From NCBI RefSeq assembly GCF_001613545.1, contig NZ_BDCO01000002.1, forward strand, positions 3,348,001 to 3,412,000: a DNA stretch of 64,000 nucleotides, in the 5' to 3' direction. How positions within the stretch are numbered: position 1 is the stretch's first letter; each line of letters starts with the position of its first letter. Source of the stretch: Terrimicrobium sacchariphilum (GTDB taxonomy: Bacteria; Verrucomicrobiota; Verrucomicrobiia; Chthoniobacterales; Terrimicrobiaceae). Below are positions 8,597-13,340 of the stretch, one piece after another. Under the pieces are notes generated by a model, which saw only the letters and a list, made by a program, of their open reading frames with translations, made no database searches and was not told the DNA's origin. Both the position numbers and the translations under genes were made by a program.

Positions 8597-9091
8597 ATGG
8601 ACGCGCGGGAATTTGAGCAGATCGTCGATGCCTTTTATCGGGATCTCTACCGTTTCGCCCTCAGCCTCACGCGCAATCCCGACGACGCCAGCGACCTCAC
8701 GCAGCAGACCTTTGCCACCTTTGCGCAAAAGCAGGACGACCTGCGCGACCGTGCCCGGTGCAAGAGCTGGCTCTTCACCACGCTGTACCGCGACTTTCTC
8801 CGGCAGGGCGCGCGCTTGCAAAAGATCGTCGCCATGGAACCCGAGACGCTGGAAATCCACGCCCCGCCCGTCGCCGCCACCGGGTCCGCCTCCGCCGAGC
8901 ATCGCGAGATCCTCGACATCCTCCTCGGGCTGGAGGAACCCCACCGCGCCGTGCTCTCGCTCTTTTACCTGGAGGACTACTCCTACAAGGACATCGCCGC
9001 CATCCTCGACATCCCGCTCGGCACCGTGATGTCCCGCATCGCCCGGGCCAAGGAAGCCCTGCGCGCCGCCATGAAATCCTCCGCCGGGTGA
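8597..9091 (+). CDS. ECF-type RNA polymerase sigma factor of the bufferin locus
   Basis: 164 aa. Region 2 spans about 5-75 (FYRDLYRFALSLTRNPDDASDLTQQTF). Region 4 spans about 105-155 (ILLGLEEPHRAVLSLFYLEDYSYKDIAAIL) with the helix-turn-helix IPLGTVMSRIARAKEALR. It is followed 58 bp later by a membrane anti-sigma gene, then doxX, the bufferin precursor, MNIO and DUF2063 genes. Known bufferin operons in other bacteria are controlled by an ECF sigma factor responding to metal stress. The same role is inferred here and supported by three matching candidate promoters within the locus. I see no copy of that promoter in front of this gene. Confidence 0.92.
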   Translation: MDAREFEQIVDAFYRDLYRFALSLTRNPDDASDLTQQTFATFAQKQDDLRDRARCKSWLFTTLYRDFLRQGARLQKIVAMEPETLEIHAPPVAATGSASAEHREILDILLGLEEPHRAVLSLFYLEDYSYKDIAAILDIPLGTVMSRIARAKEALRAAMKSSAG

Positions 9092-9100
9092 AAAAATCCG

Positions 9101-9126
9101 GGAATATTTTCCACCACCCGCCGCTC
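9101..9126 (+). promoter_or_regulatory. Candidate ECF promoter upstream of anti-sigma gene
   Basis: GGAATA (9101-9106), 16 nt, GCTC (9123-9126). The same two boxes with the same spacing occur before doxX and before the bufferin gene. The -35 resembles known ECF GGAAY elements. The predicted transcript start near 9133 leaves a leader of about 17 nt before the ATG at 9150. Confidence 0.55.
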
Positions 9127-9149
9127 TTAATATAGAAAACCTCACACCA

Positions 9150-9911
9150 ATGGATCGCGAACAGGCCAAGACCATCCTCAGCGCATGGAGACCCGGAGTC
9201 GATGACCCCGCGGGTCACGCTGCTCTGGAGGAGGCGCTTGCCCTCATGGAACGCGATCCCGAGCTGGCCGAGTGGTTCGCCGCGCAGCAGGAGGAGGACG
9301 ATGCCATCCGCGCCGGGCTCCGCTCCATCGAGCCGCCGCCGGGCCTGCGCGACGCCATCCTCGCCCAGGCGAAGACCATCGACTTTCCCGCCGAGCGCCC
9401 CTCCGCCCCCTCGGTTCTCGCCCGCTGGGCGGCCATCGCCGCCTGCGCCGTGCTCGCCGGGCTGGCCGGGCTGGCCGTCTATGTGAGCCAGCTCCCGCAG
9501 CAGATCGACTCGCGCTATCTCGCGGCGGAGCTGCCCCGGTTGGATAAAAAGCACGCCCATTCCTTTGAGTCACCCACCGGCGATCTCGAGGCCATTCGCT
9601 CCTGGCTCGCCGCGCACGGCGGGCCGTCGGATTTCCAGATTCCCCCCGGCCTTGCCAATCGCGGCGCCATCGGCTGCGAAGTTGCCTCCGTGGAGGGCGC
9701 AAAGGTTTCCATCCTCTGCTTCCCCATCGCAGGAGGCGAACCCGTCCACCTCTACATCGTGGCGAGGAACCGTCTCACCACCCCGCCGCCCGAGGGCGCG
9801 CCCGTCATCGCCACCCGCGACTCCGCCGTGCTCGCGAGCTGGAGCGCGGGCGATCTCAGCTACTTCCTCTCCGGGCGGGATTCCGCCGCAGAGCTTCAGC
9901 GCTTTCTGTAG
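9150..9911 (+). CDS. Membrane anti-sigma factor
   Basis: 253 aa. The N-terminal cytoplasmic part (1-84) is helical and acidic, with the AALEEALALMERDPELAEWF pattern of anti-sigma domains but no His-Cys-Cys zinc site. One transmembrane helix covers about 90-112. The C-terminal 140 aa would be periplasmic and contain two Cys (in IGCEV and ILCFP) that could sense metal or redox state; this sensing is inference. It lies directly after the sigma gene and before doxX, the expected place for its partner anti-sigma. Sequence family not recognised beyond this architecture. Confidence 0.82.
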   Translation: MDREQAKTILSAWRPGVDDPAGHAALEEALALMERDPELAEWFAAQQEEDDAIRAGLRSIEPPPGLRDAILAQAKTIDFPAERPSAPSVLARWAAIAACAVLAGLAGLAVYVSQLPQQIDSRYLAAELPRLDKKHAHSFESPTGDLEAIRSWLAAHGGPSDFQIPPGLANRGAIGCEVASVEGAKVSILCFPIAGGEPVHLYIVARNRLTTPPPEGAPVIATRDSAVLASWSAGDLSYFLSGRDSAAELQRFL

Positions 9912-9949
9912 CCCCGCGTCTTTTTCCGCCGTGTGCGGAATTTCCGGGG

Positions 9950-9975
9950 AATAAACCGCCGCCCCCCGCGCTCTC
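9950..9975 (+). promoter_or_regulatory. Candidate ECF promoter upstream of doxX
   Basis: GGAATA (9950-9955), 16 nt, GCTC (9972-9975). The predicted start point, 6-8 nt beyond the GCTC box, falls at or next to the doxX ATG (9982), so the mRNA may be leaderless. No Shine-Dalgarno precedes that ATG, which agrees. Confidence 0.55.
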
Positions 9976-9981
9976 ACGGGT

Positions 9982-10461
9982 ATGCACCCATTGAGCGCAT
10001 TCCTACGCACCTATTACCGATACGAAACCCTCCCCGGCCTCCTCCAGGACGCCTTGCTCCTCGCCATCCGGCTCACGTGGGGGCTGCAATTTGTCCAGAC
10101 CGGCTGGGGCAAATGGCACAGCCTGCCCAAGGTCACCGCATTCTTTGCGGAATTGGGAATACCCCTTCCCGCACTGAACGCCCACGTCGTCGCCACCACG
10201 GAACTCGTCGGCGGCCTGCTCCTCGCCCTCGGCCTCCTCTCCCGCCTCGGCGCGGCCCCGCTCATCTTTGCCATGATCGTCGCCTACGCCACCAGCGAAC
10301 AGGAGGCCATCGGCCAGCTCATGCACGGCAACCCCGACCCGTTCTTCGCCGCCGCGCCCTTCCTTTTCCTCCTCGCCTCGCTCGTCGTCCTCGTCTTCGG
10401 CCCCGGGCCGTACTCGGTCGATTTCGCCCTGAAAAAGAAATTCGAAAAAAGCGCGGAATAA
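9982..10461 (+). CDS. DoxX-family membrane protein (BufD-type)
   Basis: 159 aa with four predicted transmembrane helices (about 22-42, 65-90, 90-110, 122-143). It has the DoxX pattern LLLAIRLTWGLQFVQTGWGKW followed by TTELVGGLLLALGLLSR. DoxX-like proteins are regular members of bufferin operons, where they are thought to work in redox or metal handling at the membrane; the biochemical role is not settled. It sits between the anti-sigma gene and the Cys-rich peptide gene on the same strand. Confidence 0.9.
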   Translation: MHPLSAFLRTYYRYETLPGLLQDALLLAIRLTWGLQFVQTGWGKWHSLPKVTAFFAELGIPLPALNAHVVATTELVGGLLLALGLLSRLGAAPLIFAMIVAYATSEQEAIGQLMHGNPDPFFAAAPFLFLLASLVVLVFGPGPYSVDFALKKKFEKSAE

Positions 10462-10480
10462 ATCTCCCGCCCCGCTGCTC
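10455..10480 (+). promoter_or_regulatory. Candidate ECF promoter upstream of bufferin gene
   Basis: GGAATA (10455-10460), 16 nt, GCTC (10477-10480), overlapping the end of doxX. It predicts a leader of about 57 nt for the peptide mRNA. This is the third copy of the motif in 1.4 kb. Confidence 0.55.
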
Positions 10481-10543
10481 CCATCTTCCGAACCGCCGCA
10501 CCAGCGGCAAAACAAAACCACAACACAGAAAGCAAACCTCACG

Positions 10544-10801
10544 ATGAAAACGACCCACACCCTCGCCGCCGCCGCCCTCGCTGGACTGCTCACCGGCACC
10601 ACCGTCTCCTACGCCGCCAGCACTGGCTCCACCGGCGCAGGAGTCAAGATCAGCACCCTCGCCGACAAGGGCACCCACTCCTGCAAGGGACAGAATGCCT
10701 GCAAGGGCCAGGGCGGATGCAAAGGCAGCGACAATGGCTGCAAGGGGCAAAACTCCTGCAAGGGCAAAGGCGGCTGCGCCACCGACGGCTCGAAGCACTA
10801 A
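10544..10801 (+). CDS. bufA: Bufferin-like Cys-rich RiPP precursor
   Basis: 85 aa. A Sec-type signal peptide covers about 1-24 (MKTTHTLAAA..., cleavage after VSYA). The mature part holds six Cys at 47, 53, 59, 66, 72 and 78, arranged as two copies of CKGQN-x-CKG-x-GGC. CKGxNxCKGxG is the signature of bufferin-type precursors, in which an MNIO enzyme converts Cys side chains to thiooxazole-type heterocycles; the modified peptides bind copper. MNIO and DUF2063 genes follow on the same strand, so modification here is a strong inference. Mature form and metal are not shown by sequence. Confidence 0.88.
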   Translation: MKTTHTLAAAALAGLLTGTTVSYAASTGSTGAGVKISTLADKGTHSCKGQNACKGQGGCKGSDNGCKGQNSCKGKGGCATDGSKH

Positions 10802-11192
10802 GCATCCTCACCAATCAAACCGCCGCATCCTTGCAAGCGCCGGGTGTCAGCCCAGACGGAGCGCAGGCAGCAGCACCGCCGGCCGCCTCCCGACGCTGCA
10901 AGGATGCCGCTGGCGAGGAAATTGAAAATCCGAGCTCCACTCGAAATCCAGCGGGTCATTAGCGCCCGCCGGGCTACCGCCAGGGCAGCGCACCCAAACC
11001 TCCGCGACGACCGCCGCCACACCCGCCGACGCCAATGACCGGCTGGAGATCGAGCCAAAAACCAGTCAATACACCCGCCCACCGCACCGCGAATTAGAGC
11101 GCACGCCTCCCGGCGCACCGCCGCCCATCACCACGCCGGCCCGTCGCACCCGCAGCGAAATTCTTCTTCCAACCCCAACCCGCACACATCCC
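10802..11192 (+). other. Gene-free 391-base gap with inverted repeat between peptide and MNIO genes
   Basis: No gene is supported here. An inverted repeat GCATCCTTGCA (10825-10835) / TGCAAGGATGC (10897-10907), with further imperfect pairing outside, directly follows the precursor stop. It could be a processing or partial-termination structure giving more peptide than enzyme mRNA. The rest is C-rich, with no ECF promoter copy and no start signal that I can see. Confidence 0.5.
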
Positions 11193-12053
11193 ATGCCCGC
11201 CAACACATTCAACGGCTTCACCCAATACGGCATCGGCCTCGGCCTGCGCGTGCCGCACTACCAGCACATCCTGGAGAAAAAACCCACCTGCGACTGGTTT
11301 GAGATCATCTCGGAGAATTTCATGGTCGACGCCGGCCGCCCGCTCCACGTCCTCGACCAGATCCTCGAGCAATACCGCGTCGTCCAGCACGGCGTCGCCC
11401 TCTACTTCGGCTCCGCCGACCCGCTGAACCGCGACCACCTGCGCAAGCTGAAGCGCCTCGTCCGCCGCACCGGCACCCCCTGGCTCTCCGACCACCTCTG
11501 CTGGGGCAGCGTCGACGGCCGCTACACCCACGACCTCCTCCCCATGCCCTACACCTTTGAGGCCGCCCGCATCACCGCCCGCAAGATCCGCGAGGCCCGC
11601 GACTACCTCGAGGTCCCCATCTGCGTGGAAAATGTCAGCAGCTACGCCGAGTACCACGTCTCCGAGATGACCGAGTGGGAATTCCTCACCGAGGTCGTCG
11701 AGCTCGCCGACTGCGGCATCCTCCTCGACGTAAACAACATCTACGTCTCCTCGCAAAACCATGGCTTCAACCCCATGGAGTACGTGAATTTCCTCCCCGC
11801 CCACCGCGTCGGCCAGATCCACATCGCGGGCCATTCGCGATTCGAGCGCTACATCCTCGACACCCACGACCACCCCGTCCTCGACCCCGTCTGGCGTCTC
11901 TACGACCGCGCCATCCAGCGCTCCGGCCACACCGCCACCCTCCTCGAATGGGACGACCGCATCCCCGCCTTTGACGAAGTCCACGCCGAAGCCCTCAAAG
12001 CCCGCCGCTACCTCGACACCAAACTCCCCGCCCCGGAAAAAGCCGCCGCCTGA
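11193..12053 (+). CDS. bufB: MNIO-family (DUF692) bufferin-modifying iron oxygenase
   Basis: 286 aa, normal for DUF692. It is a TIM-barrel multinuclear non-heme iron enzyme. Family motifs are all present: GIGLGLR near the N-terminus, HGVALYFG, SDHLCWG, VENVSSY, ILLDVNNIYVSSQNHG, IHIAGH, DTHDHPV and LLEWDD. The His/Asp/Glu/Asn residues in these motifs bind the irons. MNIOs act with a partner on Cys of secreted precursors; the expected reaction is oxidative Cys heterocyclisation of the peptide encoded at 10544-10801. The enzyme has no signal peptide, so it acts in the cytoplasm before export. Confidence 0.95.
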   Translation: MPANTFNGFTQYGIGLGLRVPHYQHILEKKPTCDWFEIISENFMVDAGRPLHVLDQILEQYRVVQHGVALYFGSADPLNRDHLRKLKRLVRRTGTPWLSDHLCWGSVDGRYTHDLLPMPYTFEAARITARKIREARDYLEVPICVENVSSYAEYHVSEMTEWEFLTEVVELADCGILLDVNNIYVSSQNHGFNPMEYVNFLPAHRVGQIHIAGHSRFERYILDTHDHPVLDPVWRLYDRAIQRSGHTATLLEWDDRIPAFDEVHAEALKARRYLDTKLPAPEKAAA

Positions 12054-12422
12054 GAGCCTGTCTGAAAAAGGACGATAGGCGGACGGCAAGGCGCGGCAAC
12101 AAAGCATATCCGCTGCGATACGTGCAGGGGTCGGAACGCGAGGAATCAGCCAATACTCCACCACCCATCACCCGAAAACCGCCAGCTGCCGCCACGCAAA
12201 AACCTCAGAGCATCCGCTGAAAACCACCCCGCATCGGAATCCAAGCCGCCCCGCCTTCCTCGCACGACAAACCAACGAAAGCAAGCACACCCCTGCCGCT
12301 CACACCGCCGACACACCACAGCCACACATCGAGCCATCAAAATGAAAACGAGCGAGCATCCCGCCCCAAAGCCCACCCGGCGAAAAACTTCCGACTTCCG
12401 CAATCCCACTTCCGACTTCGCC
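12054..12422 (+). other. Gene-free spacer between MNIO and DUF2063 genes
   Basis: About 370 bases without a supported gene. In typical loci these two genes abut or overlap, so the gap is unusual. It contains GGAATC at 12142 with similar following sequence to the ECF sites but no GCTC box at the right distance. An in-frame ATG at 12342 could extend the next gene by 27 codons of low-complexity sequence. Confidence 0.5.
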
Positions 12423-13340
12423 ATGCCTCTGAAAACTCCCCTGGCCTCCCTCCAGCGCGAGGTCGCCCGAATCATCATGTCCCCGCTGACGAAGGCCGAC
12501 CGCATGCGCACCCGCCAGCCAGGGGGAGCCAATACCGCCGCGCTCGTCGAGGATTTCATCAAGCCCAACGACCGACTCACCTCCTTCGAACGCCTCGAAA
12601 TCTACAACCGCCAATACTGGTTCCGCCTCCTCGACTGCCTCTATGAGGACTACCCCGGCCTCTGCGCCCTCCTCGGCCAGCCCCGCTTTCACCGGCTCCT
12701 CATCGCCTACCTCACAAGATACCCCTCCGCCTCGCCCGACCTGCGCCACCTCGGCCAGCGCCTCCCCGCCTTCATTGCCGAATCCCCCGCCCACACCGCG
12801 CCGTACCAGGCCGTCGCGCTCGACATGGCCCGGCTGGAGCACGCCCAGTCCCATGCCTTCGACGCCGCCGAGCGCCGCCCCATCACCACCCGCCAGCTCG
12901 CCGCCGCCACACCCGAGACGCTCCGCCTCGACCTCCAGCCCCACGCCACGCTGCTCGCGCTCCGTTACCCCGTCGACGAGATCGTCATCCGCCTCATGCG
13001 CGACCACCTCCGCGCCGACACCAGCGCCGCCCAGGCGGATCACAGCGAACAGCCGCCGCGCAAATACCACCCCGCCATGGCCCACCGCGTCCGCCCCGAG
13101 TCCGTTCACCTCCTCGTCTACCGCGCCGACCACAGCGTCTATTTCAAGCGTCTCAGCGCCAGTCAATACACCATCGTCAGCGCATTAGCCGCAGGCCGCA
13201 CCCTCGCCGAATCCGTCGCTCCGCCATACAAGAGAACAGACGAGTCCTCCACGACCGATTCGACCGAAGACCTTCGCTCCCTTTTTTCGCTCTGTGCCGC
13301 TCTACGGCTGTTATGCCCATCCCGTTCCCCAAGCCGATGA
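12423..13340 (+). CDS. bufC: DUF2063 putative MNIO partner (BufC), C-terminus aberrant
   Basis: 305 aa from the ATG at 12423 (MPLKTPLASLQREV, the usual family start). The N-terminal DUF2063 domain covers about 1-95 (ERLEIYNRQYWFRLLDCLYEDYPGLCALLG). A second domain of the kind that recognises RiPP precursors follows to about 265. BufC supports BufB in precursor binding. The last family-like segment is LAAGRTLAESV. After that the expected C-terminal helices are replaced by about 38 residues (YKRTDESSTTDSTEDLRSL...) of atypical composition ending in PSRSPSR. This suggests that foreign or repeat DNA replaced the end of the gene; function may be reduced. Confidence 0.85.
   Translation: MPLKTPLASLQREVARIIMSPLTKADRMRTRQPGGANTAALVEDFIKPNDRLTSFERLEIYNRQYWFRLLDCLYEDYPGLCALLGQPRFHRLLIAYLTRYPSASPDLRHLGQRLPAFIAESPAHTAPYQAVALDMARLEHAQSHAFDAAERRPITTRQLAAATPETLRLDLQPHATLLALRYPVDEIVIRLMRDHLRADTSAAQADHSEQPPRKYHPAMAHRVRPESVHLLVYRADHSVYFKRLSASQYTIVSALAAGRTLAESVAPPYKRTDESSTTDSTEDLRSLFSLCAALRLLCPSRSPSR

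Follow-up and report, generated by a model that had tools for sequence, protein, structure and literature searches.

Does the ECF sigma factor encoded at the head of a bufferin-type locus of Terrimicrobium sacchariphilum serve that locus alone, and to what signal would it respond? The question arose in a window of 64,000 nucleotides, the whole stretch of DNA analysed here, in which genes for a sigma factor and its putative anti-sigma factor precede those for a small cysteine-containing secreted peptide and its likely maturation enzymes. We consider the locus to be a dedicated regulon, i.e., a Buf2-like metallophore for copper (or a soft metal) placed under its own ECF control, and assign this reading a probability of about 0.75.

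Organization and Conservation of the Locus

Open reading frame lists and the sequence agree on a set of six genes at 8597–13340, all on the forward strand, and every gene that a sequence-only reading had claimed for the locus is present, with the same order and strand. Within the genus of the window the order is sigma factor, anti-sigma factor, doxX, bufA, MNIO and DUF2063. The sigma factor (8597–9091, 164 amino acids) contains the Sigma70_r2 and r4_2 domains, both above the Pfam cut-offs. According to domain searches, the upstream flank is a KaiC-like ATPase gene and the downstream flank consists of HlyD, DUF1656 and FUSC efflux genes; since both flanks are oppositely oriented, the six-gene set is self-contained. 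The genome has a size of 4.75 Mb in three contigs and contains a single occurrence of PF05114, and a PLSDB search for a plasmid origin returned no near match. The operon is preserved in two further genomes of the genus (L032 and L033), and its arrangement is therefore not due to chance.

The MNIO gene is flanked by two unusually long non-coding gaps (10802–11192 and 12054–12341), which are much shorter in most relatives within the order, the first of them being kept in the genus. Genome repeats were ruled out as their source, as each gap is present in one copy in the genome.

The Precursor Peptide and the Enzymes Encoded Next to It

The bufA gene (10544–10801) encodes a precursor of 85 amino acids in which a signal-peptide-like N terminus, recognized by eye from charged first residues, a hydrophobic core and a cleavage site of the A type, is followed by six cysteines (CKGQNACKGQGGCKGSDNGCKGQNSCKGKGGC), in agreement with the six (or twelve) conserved cysteines of BufA2. 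When the precursor and the MNIO were compared with the bufferin families, as the sequence-only reading had proposed, the two gave different answers. The MNIO (11193–12053, 286 amino acids) scores 349 bits with PF05114 and, at 339.8 bits, exceeds the cut-off of 310 of the NCBIfam MNIO_BufB model (NF050167), whereas the precursor is a divergent match to NCBIfam BufA2 (NF050166) with 39.0 bits against a cut-off of 60, and for this reason we call it Buf2-like and not BufA2. The BufA2 cut-off is reached in none of the 388 genomes of the phylum.

The precursor has the symmetric arrangement of two times three cysteines, with spacings of 6, 6, 7, 6 and 6, that the earlier reading had singled out; the arrangement is real but not a peculiarity of the locus, because 42 of some 60 homologous precursors show the identical spacing, which is the norm for the clade. 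A peptide of the CKGxNxCKGxGGC type adjoins the MNIO gene nearly always, the latter being found in 41 of the 197 genomes of the order. Other forms of the precursor were also encountered. In genus g73 of family f17 (L281, L282 and L283) the bufA homologues are enlarged to runs of CKGKDG/CKGKES with about 8–11 cysteines at a period of 6, which exceeds the 6/12-cysteine pattern described for Buf2. In family f16 (L285, L288, L290 and L291) the precursors are short, with two CKGK units and mostly a C-terminal cysteine pair (CC or CWC), and the genomes are devoid of the sigma/anti-sigma pair. A cysteine-rich precursor-like protein with a twin-arginine-like start (SRRKFIG) adjoins a divergent MNIO (49% identity) in genome G462 (L295, 5182–5895 with the MNIO set to the forward strand), and searches of four loci of family f15 with MNIO-DUF2063 pairs (L286, L292, L293 and L294) found no recognizable Buf2-like precursor.

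Alignment of the MNIO to 3BWW shows that the histidine, aspartate and glutamate ligand motifs for metal are retained. The phenylalanine that stands beside the catalytic aspartate in FonB is reported to be replaced by aspartate in enzymes with Cys-Lys substrates (PMC12668002), a study that also gives a mass loss of 8 Da for a FonA peptide with two repeats; motif alignment reveals an aspartate pair, D254-D255, in the MNIO of the window, and DD is present in 60 of 68 relatives. The partner protein (12342–13340, 332 amino acids, start uncertain) matches the DUF2063 family PF09836 with 58 bits against a cut-off of 27.2, and the membrane protein encoded by doxX (9982–10461, 159 amino acids) matches PF07681 with 69.8 bits against 23.6. 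They are HvfC-like and HvfX-like, respectively, with scores under the narrower equivalog cut-offs. The bufferin-type identity proposed earlier for the locus is thus supported, as judged by homology, by the BufB-type MNIO with its aspartate pair, the DUF2063 and DoxX proteins and the six-cysteine precursor, with the restriction that the precursor is Buf2-like only.

As for the metal, the peptide may have been made for another soft metal (zinc, cadmium, gold or mercury) or may act as a sink for reactive oxygen. MerC-Buf fusions and gold-responsive GIG operons have been described (PMC12452194), and in Caulobacter both chromium and cadmium elicit a response of SigF (PMC3511200), but the characterized bufferins bind copper (PMC12452194), and we regard a function other than that of a copper metallophore as unlikely.

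A Putative Single-Pass Anti-Sigma Factor

The protein encoded directly after the sigma factor (9150–9911, 253 amino acids) has no match in Pfam, the NrsF domain included. Its match to the NCBIfam antisigma model has an E-value of 2e-8 but a score of only 34.5 bits against a cut-off of 100; the same model is matched by 26 of 36 relatives, and DUF3379 is matched weakly by 15 of 22. The family has one clear copy in the genome. The earlier description of a single-pass anti-sigma factor with two periplasmic cysteines, as opposed to one of the multi-pass type, holds: one membrane helix is predicted at residues 89–113, and C176 and C190 follow it. Both cysteines are invariant among 46 sequences, and H200 is conserved in 98% of them.

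An AlphaFold2 model built on 22 sequences (mean pLDDT 87) consists of four N-terminal helices, which form the cytoplasmic part, the membrane helix and a periplasmic alpha/beta domain. The six best structural matches of this last domain are all C-terminal domains of RseB/MucB (Z 7.4–8.6), the next, unrelated, match having a Z of 5.9, and the best alignment (Z 8.6) covers 89 residues with an rmsd of 2.9. The periplasmic domain may share the RseB/MucB C-terminal fold, and we grade the evidence as moderate because the Foldseek E-value is only 0.08, there being no Pfam match in support. From the strand boundaries of the model (175–181, 184–191 and 199–205), C176, C190 and H200 are predicted to be cross-strand neighbours, a proximity that comes from secondary-structure arithmetic and not from a measured distance. 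A fold search of the PDB listed no match for the N-terminal part, which excludes nothing, and the profile of the whole protein gave weak unrelated matches only when compared with PDB sequences.

Predicted Promoters and the Extent of the Proposed Regulon

The pattern GGAATA-N17-CTCYYA occurs on the forward strand without a mismatch before the anti-sigma, doxX and bufA genes. The first of the three ECF-type promoters (P1, 9101–9129, CTCTTA) has its -35 element 49 nt from the start of the anti-sigma gene, the second (P2, 9948–9976, CTCTCA) 34 nt from the start of doxX, and the third (P3, 10455–10483, CTCCCA), which overlaps the end of doxX, 89 nt from the start of bufA. GGAATA, the spacing and CTC are found at the same places, P1 among them, in L032 and L033. 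At up to one mismatch, the window contains five matches to the motif against 0.43 expected. No GGAATA site precedes the sigma gene of the window itself, and a search for housekeeping sigma-70 promoters found none. The SigF motif GTAACC-N16-CGAA has zero exact matches in the window; with one or two mismatches it is scattered across the window, and none of these matches lies upstream of the sigma, doxX or bufA genes. In all three members of the genus, 5–6 nt separate the ATG of doxX from the end of the -10 element before it (9948–9982), and the doxX message may therefore be leaderless.

Genome-wide, the regulon was sought by pattern match only. The looser pattern GGAATA-N16-18-CTCNNA gave 21 matches against nine for the reversed control; three of the 21 are at the locus, and nearly all of the remaining 18 lie within open reading frames. 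Beyond this genome, a survey of the sequence preceding bufA in 62 loci of the class ranks GGAATA first among all hexamers: 41 loci contain it, against 2.4 ± 1.5 when dinucleotides are shuffled, and in 32 loci it is accompanied by a downstream CT element (0.5 in shuffles). The same site often precedes sigma homologues encoded away from bufferin genes and is also found upstream of the sigma gene in several Planctomycete relatives, which indicates that the motif goes with this family of sigma factors. Two loci with linked but distant sigma factors (L059 and L280) have no such motif upstream of bufA.

The motif follows the presence of the anti-sigma family: it is found in 39 of 49 loci whose genome has this family, called at E up to 1e-10, and in two of 13 loci whose genome lacks it (Fisher p 4e-5, a count that ignores kinship). 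A kinship-aware test of the covariation of motif and sigma factor had two usable pairs only, both in the same direction. Among the ten cases in which the pair is present and the motif is not, two (L041 and L273) lie at contig ends with shortened upstream sequence. The three matched promoters, together with the recurrence of the arrangement elsewhere, strengthen the earlier proposal of an ECF system belonging to the locus itself, and P1–P3 are presumably contacted by the sigma factor encoded next to them.

Recurrent Linkage Across Genomes

Outside the genus the sigma homologues are 41–57% identical to the sigma factor of the window, a homologous anti-sigma gene is next to nearly all of them, and in essentially all loci examined it lies directly downstream of the sigma gene. 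The pair adjoins Buf2-like operons in seven families (f1, f6, f13, f15, f17, f18 and f19) and in one Limisphaerales genome, a MAG in which sites are present upstream of both sigma and bufA. The order of genes varies: it is sigma-anti-bufA-MNIO-DUF2063-doxX in G118 and bufA-MNIO-DUF2063-doxX-sigma-anti in G078 and several class-level genomes; the pair is divergent from the Buf2-like genes in G139 and G497, is also linked in G271, and stands beside MNIO-DUF2063-doxX in MAG BP5.bin34. A tree of 84 sigma proteins requires nine changes of the label "linked", at least five of them on well supported branches, meaning that linkage was gained or lost repeatedly.

Could the sigma/anti-sigma pair be a mere neighbour of the bufferin genes that does not control them? 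In many genomes the two are indeed unlinked, but one locus has three matched promoters, linkage recurs with the genes arranged differently, and copies of the pair and of the bufferin genes that lie apart share the motif, all of which makes this very improbable. At a few Buf2-like or MNIO loci (L065 and L289, also L060 and L287) a different ECF sigma factor is found, which in L065 and L289 is of the TIGR02943 type (167.5 and 161.9 bits, cut-off 162.2), suggesting that a second ECF family was recruited to the same genes.

The Cys-bearing anti-sigma factor also adjoins other genes and is thus not specific to bufferin. In four genomes (L125, L128, L147 and L148) a DsbD-family gene directly follows unlinked copies of the pair, which hints at a thiol-redox signal, and other pairs are next to genes of ZnuA/ABC-3 metal transport, DUF1223 and DUF1360. 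Together with the likeness of the periplasmic domain to RseB/MucB and with the Planctomycete relatives, which have the same promoter but lack the cysteines, these neighbourhoods fit a general regulator of envelope or thiol-redox stress of the RseA/RseB kind, for which bufferin would be one target among several and misfolding or oxidation the signal. This is a possibility to be taken seriously, though we hold it to be short of probable: before gene starts, the motif is essentially confined to this locus in the genome.

Proposed Mechanism

According to the reading we prefer, a dedicated regulon, the single-pass anti-sigma factor would keep the ECF sigma factor at the membrane in the resting state. 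A periplasmic signal, most likely an excess of copper or of another thiol-reactive metal, or else thiol oxidation, would act on the periplasmic domain that bears C176, C190 and H200, and the sigma factor would be freed. It would then read the three promoters, the one before the anti-sigma gene providing negative feedback and the other two serving doxX and bufA-MNIO-DUF2063. The MNIO-DUF2063 pair would modify the cysteines of the precursor, with thiooxazoles as the most likely product, the precursor would be exported by Sec, and the peptide would bind its metal in the periplasm.

A bolder version, in which the anti-sigma factor is an RseA-type anchor fused to a sensor of the RseB-C type, with C176, C190 and H200 as the binding site for the metal buffered by bufferin, would make the locus a closed metal-sensing loop, specific to Verrucomicrobiota, and an alternative to SigF/NrsF. 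We put it forward tentatively, as a doubtful extension.

Comparison with Known Systems

The captophorins (fontiphorin, oxazolin and gonophorin) resemble this system, by homology, in PME1-dependent MNIO chemistry and in a secreted peptide rich in Cys and Lys, but their repeats are EGKCG (Lys-Cys) whereas the peptide described here has CKG (Cys-Lys). The likeness to Buf2 (BufA2, formerly Buf_6/12Cys) extends over the signal-peptide-like N terminus, the six cysteines, the BufB-family MNIO, DUF2063 and DoxX. Two differences set the locus apart from Buf2: the precursor is under the NCBIfam cut-off, and an ECF sigma factor and an anti-sigma factor are linked to it, while a survey of 2025 reported genes for a sigma factor and NrsF for Buf1 clusters and not for Buf2 (PMC12452194).

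The Buf1 (DUF2282) system of Caulobacter with SigF/NrsF likewise combines an ECF sigma factor and an anti-sigma factor having two periplasmic cysteines with bufferin-type genes, DoxX included. Membership of the present locus in the SigF/NrsF system was nevertheless rejected given the lack of an NrsF match in Pfam and of SigF-type promoters in the locus: NrsF spans the membrane with six segments, and the promoters read by SigF are of the type GTAACC-N16-CGAA (PMC3511200), whereas here there are one membrane helix with an RseB-C-like domain and GGAATA-N17-CTCYYA, and the precursor is not of the DUF2282 type. Substitution of the two periplasmic cysteines of Caulobacter NrsF loosens the restraint of SigF (PMC3511200), which for the anti-sigma factor described here may serve as a functional analogy, the two anti-sigma factors being unrelated. 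With RseA-RseB and MucA-MucB the system shares a single-pass anti-sigma factor and, in the model, a periplasmic domain that matches the C-terminal domain of RseB/MucB, except that this domain is within the anti-sigma factor itself, carries conserved Cys and His residues, and comes without the large lipid-binding domain of RseB.

What is new is the control, i.e., ECF-linked Buf2-like clusters with an anti-sigma factor and a promoter unlike those of Buf1. Across Verrucomicrobiota, Buf2-like peptides are now seen to be linked recurrently to ECF genes and to have an ECF-type promoter motif in common, and this motif can be used to find bufferin regulons in uncultured genomes. The periplasmic domain of the anti-sigma factor is a testable candidate sensor. 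Next to the SigF/NrsF-controlled Buf1 genes of Caulobacter, the locus suggests that ECF systems were recruited independently to the same kind of metallophore.
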